A DNA stretch of 64,000 nt. It comes from Trachythela sp. YZ-2020. Taxonomy: Eukaryota; Cnidaria; Anthozoa; Malacalcyonacea; Clavulariidae. This document shows positions 36,110 through 54,728 of this stretch, piece after piece (the first letter of the stretch is position 1; each line of letters begins with the position of its first letter). The notes below the pieces were generated by a model, which did not search any database, was not told the DNA's origin, and saw only the letters and a list, made by a program, of their open reading frames with translations. The position numbers were made by a program, and so were the translations under genes. The stretch is taken from NCBI GenBank assembly GCA_016169945.1, contig JADLSH010000271.1:124001-188000 (forward strand). Direction: 5' to 3'.

Positions 36110-36379
36110 ATGAATATGGATAGCCTATGTAAAGAGTTGTTAGTATTAAAAATTAACAAACAAAAACTACCGCCTTATAAATGCTGTGACAATCCAATAT
36201 TTGATGACCACAATGCTGTGATATTTTGTGTTAATTGTGGAGAAGAAAATGGAGAAAGAGTCCCATATAGAAGAGCTGGATACTCTGTTATAGGAAGACT
36301 ACCAAAAACAAAGAAAGAGAAAGTTAAAATTAAGAAAAAATATAATATGTTGTATTGTTTTTATACCTTTTGGGTATAA
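36110..36379 (+). CDS. Small zinc-ribbon-like protein
   Basis: An 89-residue protein with YKCCDNPIF...IFCVNCGEE, that is C-C-x13-C-x2-C around residues 25-42, the spacing of a TFIIB-like zinc ribbon. A basic tail (KTKKEKVKIKKKY) follows. Zinc ribbons of this type occur in viral late-transcription factors and in TFIIB, so a transcription role is possible but only inferred. It is the first gene inside the left repeat. The stop codon lies in the stem of the hairpin at 36358-36382, which it shares with the convergent zinc-finger gene. Confidence 0.7.
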   Translation: MNMDSLCKELLVLKINKQKLPPYKCCDNPIFDDHNAVIFCVNCGEENGERVPYRRAGYSVIGRLPKTKKEKVKIKKKYNMLYCFYTFWV

Positions 36380-36382
36380 AAA
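36358..36382. terminator. Hairpin between convergent genes
   Basis: Perfect 10-bp stem TTTTTATACC/GGTATAAAAA with a 5-nt loop. It covers the plus-gene stop codon and lies 18 nt past the minus-gene stop. Confidence 0.75.
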
Positions 36383-36399
36383 TAAAAGTTTTATGGTTT

Positions 36400-36648
36400 T
36401 TAAAAATGTTTGTTAGCCTTCATATGCTGTAAAAGTATTGATCTTGTTTTAAATGGCTTATCACAAACAGTACATTTACTAGTAAAACCATCTTCAAAAA
36501 TTAATGGTTTTTCACCATCATCATGATTGTTGTGTTTTAAGTGTAATTTAACCGCTGTTTTACTACAAGAAGAATAAGAACACTTAGGACACCCAAATAT
36601 CTTTGGTTGTGGCTCTGTTACAAAAAATCCTATACATCTTTTTGGCAT
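36400..36648 (-). CDS. Two-finger C2H2 protein
   Basis: 82 residues with two C2H2 fingers: CPKCSYSSCSKTAVKLHLKH..H (residues about 20-42) and CTVCDKPFKTRSILLQHMKA..H (about 59-81). Between them is an acidic linker. Probably a nucleic-acid-binding regulator of the element. Its start overlaps the stop of the upstream minus-strand frame by 19 bases, suggesting co-transcription. Confidence 0.75.
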   Translation of the reverse strand: MPKRCIGFFVTEPQPKIFGCPKCSYSSCSKTAVKLHLKHNNHDDGEKPLIFEDGFTSKCTVCDKPFKTRSILLQHMKANKHF

Positions 36649-36830
36649 TTTATATTATATTTTGTTTTAGTTTTATTTTTACTCAATTTGTTAAGTATTT
36701 TATTATTTCTAACCAACCATCTTATTCTTTTACCTTGTAAAATTTCTAATTCGGTTTTTGGTATTATTTTTACTTTTGGTGTATCGGCAAAAAATGCTTT
36801 TATTTGCTCTCTTGTTATTCCTTTGGACAT
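36630..36830 (-). CDS. Small basic protein, unknown
   Basis: 66 residues, lysine-rich (NKLSKNKTKTKYNIKCQK near the end), no recognised domain. Accepted because it has an ATG, sits in the normal gene spacing of the element and its end overlaps the next gene by 19 bases. It could also be a chance frame. Confidence 0.45.
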   Translation of the reverse strand: MSKGITREQIKAFFADTPKVKIIPKTELEILQGKRIRWLVRNNKILNKLSKNKTKTKYNIKCQKDV

Positions 36831-36931
36831 ATTTAGTTTTTGGGTGTATTTTTATTATGGGGTTGCAATTTTGTGTTTATGCAAAAGTTAAAATTGAGAA
36901 AAAAATATGTTACACAAAATAAAAATATAAT

Positions 36932-37159
36932 ATGAGTCATAAAGGGCGTTTTAATGTTGGGGTCACACTTTTTATGTGTGATAAGTGTGATTGGAAAGGT
37001 TCTTCAACCGGTATTAAATTACATTTAAAAGCAAGACATAACATTTCGTTGTTGAAAAAAACAACACCTTTAGAGGATATTGGTGTTTGTGAAACCTGCG
37101 GATATGAGACAAACAATAACGCAGACATGAAAAAACATGTTAAAAAACACACAAGATAG
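36932..37159 (+). CDS. Small C2H2 zinc-finger protein
   Basis: 75 residues with two fingers: CDKCDWKGSSTGIKLHLKARH and CETCGYETNNNADMKKHVKKH (about residues 14-34 and 51-71). This is the second two-finger protein in 800 bases. It converges on the polymerase gene, with a hairpin in the 45-base gap. Confidence 0.75.
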   Translation: MSHKGRFNVGVTLFMCDKCDWKGSSTGIKLHLKARHNISLLKKTTPLEDIGVCETCGYETNNNADMKKHVKKHTR

Positions 37160-37168
37160 TTATTAATT

Positions 37169-51998: not shown

Positions 51999-52057
51999 CT
52001 TTTTTTATTTTATTTTTTTTGTTAATAAGGATTAGAAAAATATTATTTACACCTAAC

Positions 52058-53887
52058 TTATCCAACCTTTGTGAAAACCATGACTGGGTCTAAGACATCG
52101 TAAAGAAGATAACTATAATAATCACCGAAATAAGTTGTATAAGATTTTAGTTCCACTGTCGCTCCTTTTGCAATGGTGATAAGACCTTCCATGTAAATTT
52201 GGTGTATAAAACTAGGGGTGTATATGTTACCATCTGTTACAACTTTAAACTGAGGCTTAATGACATTTTCTATATAGACACATGTGTCAAGGTCTGCATA
52301 GTCAGCATCATCTGAAGAAAACCAACCAGCGGTTTTAGTAATATTTGGGCTACCTGATTCAAAATAAGTTGGTATCAAGGTTAGTTTGTATTTAACGATA
52401 TAATCTCCTTGGGTTGTAATTATGGTCTTCATGATTAGGTTGTTATTTCTAGTACAAAAAAGATTATCTTTTGCAGATATGAGCGAGTGCTTTCCTGGTT
52501 TAGAGTGAAAAGCAACCAAAAAATTATTAATGGCTCCTTGTGGGCCGGTGTCGCCCTTATCACCTTTGTTTCCAGTGTCCCCCTTATCACCTTTGTTTCC
52601 AGTGTTTCCTTTTTGGCCTCTATTTCCAGAATTTCCCTGGCTGCCCATGCTTCCGCGATCTCCTTTTGACCCAACCAACCCTGTAAACCCTCGTGGACCT
52701 GTGTCACCTTTGTCGCCTTTATCACCCTGGTCGCCTTTTGAACCATCAGTTCCTCTAATGGCTGGCGGGCCTTGTATGCCTGTATCGCCCTTAATGCCAT
52801 GTAAACCCTGATAACCTCGCGGACCTTCTAATCCAGTAACTCCCTGTAAGCCGGTGTTGCCTGTAAGACCATGCGGACCTTGGATGCCTTGTAAGCCTCT
52901 TGGTCCAGTATCTCCTTTGTCACCTTTTGGCCCATTTGCACCAGTATTTCCTTTTATCCCGGTATCACTTCCTTTTGCACCTTGTGGTCCTGTAGGTCCT
53001 GTGTTACCAGTTAAGCCTTTTGCCCCAGTAATTCCATGTTGTCCTTGTGGGCCAGTATCACCTTTTGGTCCTCTTGGACCTTGTGCACCGCCACCACCAG
53101 ATCCAGATCCAGATCCTGCAGGACCTTGTGGACCTTGGGGACCTGTGTTTCCTTTTAATCCTTGTTGTCCTTGTGTACCGGCGTTACCTGTAAGTCCTTT
53201 TTGACCTGTTACTCCTTGTAAACCTTGTGGTCCAATATTTCCTTGATGTCCTAATGATCCTTGATTTCCTTTTTGTCCTTTTAAGCCTTTTGGACCAGTT
53301 TCTCCTTTGAGTCCTTGTTGGCCTTGTGTACCAGTATTTCCTGTGAGACCTTTTTGTCCTGTGACACCTTGTAAACCTTGCGGACCAGTCGCACCAGTGT
53401 CTCCTTTTTGTCCTTGTGCACCACCGCCAGATCCAGATCCTGCAGGACCTTGTGGACCAGTTGCGCCAACATTTCCTTTAAGTCCTTGTTGGCCTTGTGT
53501 ACCAGTGTTACCTGTAAGACCTTTTGATCCTGTGACACCTTGTAAGCCTTGAGTTCCTGTGTCACCATTAGCTCCTGTGTCACCAATGTTTCCTTTTAAT
53601 CCTTTTGCACCTTGTGGTCCTGTATTTCCAATAAGTCCTTGTTGTCCTTGTGGTCCAGTATCTCCCGTGAGACCTTTTTGACCGGTTACTCCTTGTAAAC
53701 CTTGAATTCCTGTGTTACCATTTTGACCTTTTGGTCCGTCAGAACCTTTTGGCCCATCAGAACCTTTTGGACCGGTTAAACCCATCTCACCTTGTATTCC
53801 ATTGGGACCTTGTGGTCCCTGGGGGCCTTGTTGTCCTCTAGCTGTTGTGTATCTATTCTTTTTCAAATAACCAAATGCTAATGCCAT
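52058..53887 (-). CDS. Collagen-like fibre protein with C-terminal knob
   Basis: 609 residues. Residues 1-17 carry [11 protein letters not shown]; residues about 18-451 are nearly uninterrupted Gly-X-Y collagen repeats, rich in GPQG, GDTG and GLKG, with GSGSGG-type hinges at three places. Residues 452-609 are a beta-rich domain ([24 protein letters not shown]) resembling TNF/C1q-like trimer knobs. This is the design of a trimeric fibre: anchor, collagen shaft, knob. The neighbouring gene shares the MALxFGY start, suggesting a common capsid-anchoring peptide. Collagen-like fibres are known in giant viruses and phages; in a Polinton this is unusual to my knowledge. Host prolyl hydroxylase would be available in an animal cell. 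Confidence 0.9.
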
Positions 53888-53901
53888 TATTTTATTTAGG
53901 G

Positions 53902-54432
53902 TTAAAGATTGTTTGACTCAGTAGTGTAAGTTGTTACATGAAGAGTTGACTCGTTACCACCTGTTTCGTCAGAAAGTTGTTTAAATTTTACAACCATAAG
54001 TTTCACGGTTTTGTACTCCGGGACAGTTTTTGGAATGCTAAAATTTTCATCTAATATGAAGCAGTTTGTACCAGGAATCTGTTTAGTTGATAAATTTATT
54101 TCTTTTAGATCCCTCGTTATTTTTGTACCATCCAACATTGTGCAGTATAAAGAATATAATATTCTCATTGGAGTTGTAATACTAGAGTCGCCGTCCAAGA
54201 TGTGAGCTCTAAGAGCTATCCCCGAGTTTTCCGAAAAATTGTTACACCAAATGTACATTGCCGCATTGCTTGGCTTCCTGTCAAGAGGATGGAGCCATTT
54301 ATCTTTAACCAATCCATCATATGAAGACCGGAAATCACTAGCCGTTAGAAAGTACAATGGTTCTGCCCTAAGAGACTTTAGGTTGTGTATAAAGTTTGGT
54401 TCATTTTCTGAATATCCAAATCTAAGTGCCAT
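53902..54432 (-). CDS. MALxFGY-start protein, probable second fibre or adaptor
   Basis: 176 residues beginning MALRFGYSENE, the same first seven positions as the collagen protein except one. The rest is beta-rich (RAEPLYFLTASDF; KLMVVKFKQLSDE; STLHVTTYTTE) without transmembrane segments, consistent with a compact knob. It lies directly upstream of the collagen gene, 14 bases apart on the same strand. I infer a short spike or head protein attached by the same N-terminal peptide. The name is only descriptive. Confidence 0.65.
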   Translation of the reverse strand: MALRFGYSENEPNFIHNLKSLRAEPLYFLTASDFRSSYDGLVKDKWLHPLDRKPSNAAMYIWCNNFSENSGIALRAHILDGDSSITTPMRILYSLYCTMLDGTKITRDLKEINLSTKQIPGTNCFILDENFSIPKTVPEYKTVKLMVVKFKQLSDETGGNESTLHVTTYTTESNNL

Positions 54433-54446
54433 TTATTTTAATAAAA

Positions 54447-54689
54447 ATGGGTTGTAAACCTAGTAAATTATTAATACAAAGAAATGGAGATTTGTTTAAT
54501 GAGAATATAGAAGTTAAGAAGAGATTTTTAACAGGAGTTCAAATGTCACGAAAAGGAGACAATGGAATAGAGGGCAACATTCAAATTGGTTATGTTTCGG
54601 GTAGAATTAAAAAATATGAAAGGGTGTTAAATATTGGCGAGGAGGTGGCAGCAATTGAAAATGTTGCTGTAGTAATTCCTGATGAGTGA
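54447..54689 (+). CDS. Putative N-myristoylated small protein
   Basis: 80 residues from ATG 54447, which follows TTTTAATAAAA; the in-frame upstream start at 54426 lies in the divergent gene. The product then begins MGCKPS, a perfect N-myristoylation consensus (Gly2, Ser6) with Cys3 available for palmitoylation. The body is hydrophilic with no domain I recognise. Membrane targeting in the infected or host cell, or to a virion membrane, is likely. Confidence 0.65.
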   Translation: MGCKPSKLLIQRNGDLFNENIEVKKRFLTGVQMSRKGDNGIEGNIQIGYVSGRIKKYERVLNIGEEVAAIENVAVVIPDE

Positions 54690-54701
54690 GTGAGGTTTTT
54701 T

Positions 54702-54728
54702 ATTTCCTAATTTTTTAAATTAGGAAAT
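54702..54728. terminator. Hairpin between convergent genes
   Basis: Perfect 12-bp stem ATTTCCTAATTT/AAATTAGGAAAT, loop TTT, 13 and 22 nt from the stops. Confidence 0.85.

Follow-up and report, generated by a model that had tools for sequence, protein, structure and literature searches.

Among the closest described precedents for the signals reported here is the hairpin rule of mimivirus and megavirus (Priet 2015, PMC4402537, which cites Byrne 2009); in vitro work on mimivirus R343 has demonstrated cleavage at such a hairpin (PMC4402537). Virophages are considered to rely on the machinery of their helper (PMC6723459, PMC11814242). In the present study a 64,000-nucleotide stretch of the cnidarian Trachythela sp. 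YZ-2020 was analyzed (contig JADLSH010000271.1, positions 124,001 to 188,000; hereafter the window, in whose numbering all coordinates are given). It holds an element of about 20 kb enclosed by terminal inverted repeats (TIRs), which is identified as a Polinton/Maverick by these repeats and by its genes for a DNA polymerase B (PolB), an rve-type integrase and an A32 ATPase. At the sequence level a mimivirus-like hairpin rule is strongly supported by the position of the hairpins, a structure that is kept while its letters change, folding on both strands, the link to 3' ends and a frequency of AATAAA near background, which bears out a resemblance that a sequence-only reading of this DNA had proposed. 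The hairpins are probably 3'-end signals of virus-type transcription units and would act at the RNA level.

Hairpins at gene ends

The seven pairs of convergent stop codons named in the sequence-only reading were recovered, and every gap has, within or beside it, a perfect stem of 10 to 12 bp:

36358-36382, 10-bp stem, loop of 5 nt, junction 36379/36400; overlaps the stop of the plus-strand gene
37169-37195, 11-bp stem, loop of 5 nt, junction 37159/37205 (end of PolB); identical stem in copies L009 and L013
43236-43264, 11-bp stem, loop of 7 nt, junction 43216/43281
45197-45221, 10-bp stem, loop of 5 nt, junction of the stop of the presumed major capsid protein (MCP) gene, 45181, with 45242
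50493-50523, 12-bp stem, loop of 7 nt, junction 50479/50533
51969-51998, 12-bp stem, loop of 6 nt, junction 51954/52058
54702-54728, 12-bp stem, loop of 3 nt, junction 54689/54750

Chance from AT-richness is ruled out by two null models. Dinucleotide shuffles of each gap with 25 nt on either side matched the observed stem length in 20, 0, 16, 39, 1, 2 and 1 of 2000 trials, junctions in the order listed, and a second-order Markov null (Markov-2) was applied to six of the pairs, the gene at 36932-37159 lying outside the query set; it averaged 0.007 stems of at least 10 bp and never produced more than 1. A gene-blind scan of the interior of the element (stem of at least 10 bp, loop of 3-10 nt) returned ten stems, namely the seven convergent ones and those at 41534-41558, 41698-41724 and 43940-43967; the same scan found four stems in 43.4 kb of flanking DNA. 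With laxer settings (at least 9 bp, loop up to 12 nt) the interior yielded 15 stems, eight of them outside convergent junctions, one of these within the BRO gene. Both strands of all seven hairpins fold strongly as RNA (z -2.7 to -6.3). The right arm of the hairpin at 51969 is repeated 30 nt downstream (52028-52039), and this repeat could pair with the same left arm.

The rule was then tested in copies within the same genome, with one gene as marker. This gene (43964-45181, plus strand) is presumed from its length, position and neighbours to encode MCP, in Polintons a double jelly-roll protein; a Pfam search of its product gave no match. In the 578-Mb host genome at least 103 MCP matches were found, 13 at 96-100% identity and the remainder at 79-83%, and the neighbourhoods of 71 of the 103 listed matches (the window and 70 others) were examined. 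In a span that opens 25 nt ahead of the MCP stop and closes 250 nt past it, 67 of the 71 copies carry a perfect stem of at least 9 bp; one of these stems, in L103, is of another kind and richer in GC. L059, L061, L076 and L082 make up the other four and share the hairpin except for a single mismatch (C.A when read on the plus strand, U.G in RNA from the minus strand). Counting these versions, some hairpin follows MCP in 71/71. With the stricter setting of at least 10 bp up to 150 nt past the stop, 61 of 71 copies carry a stem (0.38 expected), and in the same copies such stems occur in 0/71 at mid-coding positions of MCP and in 1/71 at the start of its coding region. In 64 of 67 copies the hairpin has the MCP stop on one side and the first minus-strand stop on the other; its median distance from the MCP stop is 27 nt, and in 62 of 67 it begins within 100 nt.

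That stems differ from site to site while the structure is kept, as had been claimed, holds in part. Among the MCP hairpins 19 distinct 5' arms occur, and when arms were exchanged between copies 59% of positions paired and 30 of 342 exchanges remained perfect (the test used the 67 perfect stems, whose own arms pair at 100% by selection). On the other side, the stems at 37169 and 51969 have TTTCTAATCC in common, and the arms follow a U/C-rich 5' pattern: the 5' arms of 60 distinct hairpins from convergent junctions consist of 55% T, 22.5% C, 21% A and 0.9% G, and T outnumbers A in 58 of them. Stems are mostly of 9-12 bp, up to 14, and loops have 3-9 nt, 51% of them A. The reverse complement is again U/C-rich on its 5' side, hence the two transcripts show hairpins of one type. 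A genome-wide count of the core pattern TTTCTAATCC..GGATTAGAAA gave 292, versus 0 for a reversed-pattern control. Of 50 places listed, 26 have at least one of the 103 listed MCP matches no more than 20 kb away (about 0.7% expected); several of the other 24 form groups with spacings of a few to 15 kb, which is the pattern expected of further copies.

Junction types were compared in genes of at least 60 aa supported by similarity to window proteins; junctions with gaps above 400 bp and convergent pairs lacking either stop were excluded, and removal of near-duplicates left 75 of 95 convergent, 55 of 79 tandem and 41 of 67 divergent junctions. Stems of at least 10 bp are present at 67 of the 75 convergent junctions, against 0.50 expected (72/75 with at least 9 bp), and at 7 of the 55 tandem ones (0.10 expected). 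Before redundancy removal the count was 87/95 convergent junctions with 0.2 expected under the Markov-2 null. The difference persists in gaps of at least 30 bp (66/74 convergent versus 7/25 tandem, Fisher p 1.5e-8), and none of 30 tandem gaps below 30 bp has a stem. The pieces holding at least one supported gene, 270 kb in all, contain 176 distinct stems. A supported stop precedes 135 of them by no more than 200 nt; 25 are located at starts and four in coding sequence, and the other 12 fall in further non-coding DNA or in unsupported places.

Some hairpins appear to be a property of the 3' end of a gene and can move with it. The gene at 43281 has its hairpin in 6/6 cases when it faces the gene at 42830 and in 8/9 when it faces BRO, and keeps it with a PolB-similar open reading frame (ORF) in tandem behind (4/4). 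The hairpin of the gene at 51694 (TTTTCTAATCCT, loop GTAACA) is found reversed (loop TGTTAC) behind MCP where the 51694 gene adjoins, in 5 of 15 cases exactly and in related form in the others. In a number of Polinton copies (L022, L026, L030, L034, L046 and others) the genes are reshuffled: MCP has at least four partner genes, some in changed orientation.

The tandem hairpins of the window and two short units in the gap between PolB and BRO are the following; the delimitation of the units is our reading of the sequence:

42771-42793, hairpin of 9 bp, 3' end of BRO, tandem junction
41339-41558, plus strand, putative short unit lacking a long ORF, with a TATAAATAAAGGG head and 41534-41558 as terminal hairpin
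41582-41724, plus strand, second putative short unit lacking a long ORF, same 38-nt head, hairpin 41698-41724 at its end

The 38-nt TATAAATAAAGGG head is identical in the two units, which may represent small RNAs. In view of the tandem-end hairpins (7/55) and these units, "end of transcription unit" describes the position of the hairpins better than "convergent".

Function of the hairpins and alternative explanations

If the hairpins are 3'-end signals, RNA 3' ends would form at them, and each hairpin would be a processing or termination site recognized by a protein. A bacterial-type terminator is unlikely because no consistent T-run follows the stem: runs of at least five T are seen in 7 of 60 hairpins reading plus and 23 of 60 reading minus (T makes up a raw 47% of the 12 nt after the stem). 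At a convergent junction a single palindrome would serve both facing genes, since reading it from the opposite strand gives a hairpin of that same type; the facing transcripts could thus end at one place and would hardly overlap. Cleavage at the hairpin, as by mimivirus R343, is the nearest known mechanism. The RNA polymerase and the nuclease that read the signal could be those of the host, could be supplied by a large DNA virus that co-infects the cell, or could include an unrecognized protein of the element. In the 150 nt next to the stop, AATAAA is present at 6 of 14 convergent ends, where 4.4 are expected, and in 20 of 71 MCP copies, against an expectation of 17.5. AATAAA-driven 3' ends were therefore rejected as a candidate, the motif being near background only.

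Several observations weigh against hairpins as general end signals. Such a hairpin is lacking at 48 of 55 tandem junctions, where the upstream genes must share an end or use another signal; the sequence-only reading had likewise noted that tandem junctions mostly lack it. Only one of four tandem 43281-43281 pairs has a hairpin (three lack it), and none of the three copies with gene 43281 inverted ahead of MCP (L030, L038, L042) has one between the two genes. The last gene of the element (55371-55691) has no stem of at least 10 bp at its stop in a scan that reached 55688. Some hairpin arms contain AATAAA, so that the claimed independence from this signal is statistical, not absolute. A Pfam scan of 20 of the 23 called proteins, all but the products of 36932-37159, 43713-43943 and 52058-53887, detected neither an RNase III nor a poly(A) polymerase nor an RNA polymerase, hence no processing enzyme among them, and the suggestion that the element has its own 3'-end processing finds no support there. 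Finally, 25 of 71 copies have a stem of at least 10 bp less than 150 nt upstream of MCP, with 0.15 expected, and such stems are found at 18 of 41 non-redundant divergent junctions (0.40 expected), so palindromes by themselves are not a mark of ends. As a counter-example the divergent stems were set aside: all lie in the gap between gene 43281 and MCP, most are the palindrome at the MCP start, to which the stems upstream of MCP are also ascribed, and 23 of the 25 stems assigned to starts sit on the start codon of MCP, with a pair of start motifs facing each other there. In the window this is

43940-43967, palindrome formed by two head-to-head start motifs (minus-strand start 43943 and MCP start); not an end hairpin

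The start motifs themselves, both picked after inspection of the sequence, fall into two classes. AATAA followed by zero to four A or T and ATG precedes 14 of 23 genes (2.1 expected by shuffles); among 614 other ATGs, two are preceded by it. Counting both strands, the element has seven AAATTGA sites; five of these sit 38-45 nt upstream of genes that have no AATAA..ATG, where 0.25 are expected at -70 to -25 and five were reached in 0 of 500 shuffles, and none lies within 100 nt upstream of the 14 genes that have AATAA..ATG:

36683-36689, minus strand, AAATTGA, first base 41 nt upstream of the 36400-36648 gene
36891-36897, plus strand, AAATTGA, 41 nt upstream of the 36932 gene
42792-42798, plus strand, AAATTGA, 38 nt upstream of the 42830 gene
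50039-50045, plus strand, AAATTGA, 45 nt upstream of the 50084 gene
51650-51656, plus strand, AAATTGA, 44 nt upstream of the 51694 gene

AAATTGA is the core of an early promoter known from several giant viruses and given as AAAATTGA for mimivirus and pacmanvirus (PMC4402537, PMC11788076). In other copies the late-type motif AATAA..ATG precedes 43 of 55 MCP starts, 52 of 61 starts of gene 43281 and 8 of 34 of gene 54447, most of the latter having neither motif. AAATTGA is found there before gene 51694 in 11 of 17 cases, some of which may fall in the coding region of the neighbour, before gene 50084 in 1 of 6 and before MCP in 0 of 55. Three divergent ATG pairs are 14, 15 and 20 bp apart and a fourth 59 bp; start motifs stand head-to-head at 43943/43964, 46979/46995 and 54432/54447, with start codons 14-20 bp apart. 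Taken together, hairpin ends and two classes of start signals look like virus-type expression.

It is conceivable, though clearly less likely than not in our judgement, that this amounts to a complete large-DNA-virus code (AAATTGA as early-type, AATAA..ATG as late-type start signal, hairpins as ends) that is read by a co-infecting relative of giant viruses, with the Polinton as a virophage-like satellite. If so, the code would point to the helper.

A post-transcriptional role is rather unlikely. Here the stem in the 3' untranslated region would protect or export the mRNA, as the histone stem-loop does, and the end would be made elsewhere by host enzymes. Strong RNA folding on both strands would suit such an element, and the variable distance from the MCP stop given above would be tolerable for it; yet no Rfam family matches 35600-56200 at E <=1, the histone stem included, AATAAA is near background only, and one stem for two facing genes would be more economical as an end point.

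Still less probable are palindromes that act at the DNA level, as recombination points for swaps of gene cassettes or as binding sites of a dimeric protein. Genes are reshuffled between copies, hairpins stand at many borders, the 51694 hairpin accompanies its gene and the arms are biased in sequence, all of which would agree with such a role. However, the upstream border of MCP is rearranged too (L030, L038, L042) and there the hairpin between the genes is found in 0/3, the tandem borders below 30 bp are likewise devoid of hairpins (0/30), and loops of 3-9 nt, odd and even, would hardly be tolerable for a rigid dimer site. Ordinary 3' ends at host nuclear poly(A) signals, with hairpins incidental to AT-rich gaps, are very improbable: the gaps are AT-rich and AATAAA is present at some convergent ends, but it does not clearly exceed shuffled background, whereas the hairpins do so more than 100-fold.

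Architecture of the element and its surroundings

Terminal inverted repeats of Polintons/Mavericks surround roughly 15-25 kb, and the interior of the present element (36074-55688) measures 19,615 bp, of which 1,927 bases are non-coding by the gene list of this analysis. A Pfam scan matched PolB, the A32 ATPase and BRO-N, with the rve integrase just below the cut-off. Further features are

35650-36073, left terminal inverted repeat, two stretches 97 and 99% complementary to 55689-56123
37205-41329, minus strand, DNA polymerase B (Pfam DNA_pol_B_2)
41777-42703, plus strand, BRO-N protein (Pfam)
47779-48762, plus strand, retroviral-type integrase (rve 31.1 bits, cut-off 32.6)
51038-51634, minus strand, A32-type packaging ATPase (Pfam)
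52058-53887, minus strand, collagen-like Gly-X-Y protein (by eye on the translation)
55689-56123, right terminal inverted repeat, by its complementarity to the left repeat

The product of 50084-50479 shows weak similarity to the catalytic domain of the telomere resolvases ResT/TelK (19.4 bits, cut-off 27) and is possibly a tyrosine-recombinase-like protein. An AT palindrome of 11 bp lies in the right repeat at 55768-55799. By eye, GC-rich stretches with short inverted repeats follow the BRO gene (42704-42770) and the gene at 46995 (47631-47745). The insertion site is a tandem array of units of about 1.31 kb (29464-35300 and 56119-63885), whose copies closest to the element are 96-100% alike (one 300-nt family) and whose outer copies are 73-76% alike; the flank also holds a C2H2 zinc-finger array and reverse transcriptases, a content that suits an invertebrate animal as host.

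Among the best 120 of 286 protein relatives of MCP, those of Paramuricea clavata, a coral, have 44-46% identity and others up to 52%. Searches of IMG/VR and of a phage collection by MCP, PolB or ATPase gave no relatives. Either of two exact hairpin patterns is present at 17 loci in IMG/VR, but the contigs concerned do not obey the rule, with hairpins at 2 of 6 convergent junctions on rough gene calls, and were dropped as candidates. A PF04451 search of the host genome had no match, but its own controls were also silent, which makes it uninformative.

Significance and comparison with known systems

We know of no answer to the question of how Polintons are transcribed. A hairpin end code, found in all 71 MCP copies examined, gives a directly testable answer for their 3' ends. 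It would tie Polintons to giant viruses and virophages in gene expression, beyond capsid and replication genes, and gene-end hairpins of the TTTTCTAATCC type would provide a sequence signature for tracing a helper virus. No hairpin-end code of Polintons is described in the titles and abstract openings of the open-access papers listed by our searches, nor in the portions consulted of PMC5799277 and PMC12220804.

In mimivirus and megavirus, according to PMC4402537, transcripts end at palindromic hairpins whose nucleotide sequence is not conserved and which replace the usual consensus signal, and the Polinton, by its sequence, is probably alike in this. The giant-virus rule further comprises cleavage and polyadenylation of the transcripts within the hairpin, and an RNase III and a poly(A) polymerase encoded by the virus. 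Compared with the mimivirus hairpins (stem of at least 13 bp, loop of at most 5 nt; PMC8557863), those of the Polinton mostly have shorter stems and their loops can be wider, their arms are strand-asymmetric, and neither an RNase III nor a poly(A) polymerase is among the 20 proteins scanned. In Marseilleviridae and Pithovirus palindromes are likewise tied to the upstream stop codon (PMC5413956, PMC8557863), and the threshold used for Pithovirus (stem of at least 10 bp, loop of at most 10 nt; PMC8557863) fits the Polinton hairpins. For Marseilleviridae this link is said to be independent of the downstream gene (PMC5413956). In the Polinton the evidence on this is divided: a hairpin is present where the PolB-similar ORF and gene 43281 stand in tandem (4/4), but tandem junctions mostly lack one. 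These are large viruses, Marseilleviridae with an RNase III and, like the Polinton proteins scanned, without a poly(A) polymerase (PMC5413956), in contrast to a 20-kb Polinton.

Mavirus and the endogenous mavirus-like elements (PMC10945749) are likewise integrated in many copies, carry PolB and an integrase and have a promoter code thought to match a giant virus; unlike for the Polinton, the report on Mavirus describes a late-promoter match and its main text does not use the word hairpin. The Sputnik virophage is a mimivirus parasite in amoebae, whereas the Polinton is integrated in some 100 copies in a large eukaryotic genome with no helper known. Both are nevertheless small elements that combine gene-end hairpins, at 16 genes in Sputnik, with some promoter motifs of giant viruses, AAAATTGA included (PMC6723459, PMC11998528).

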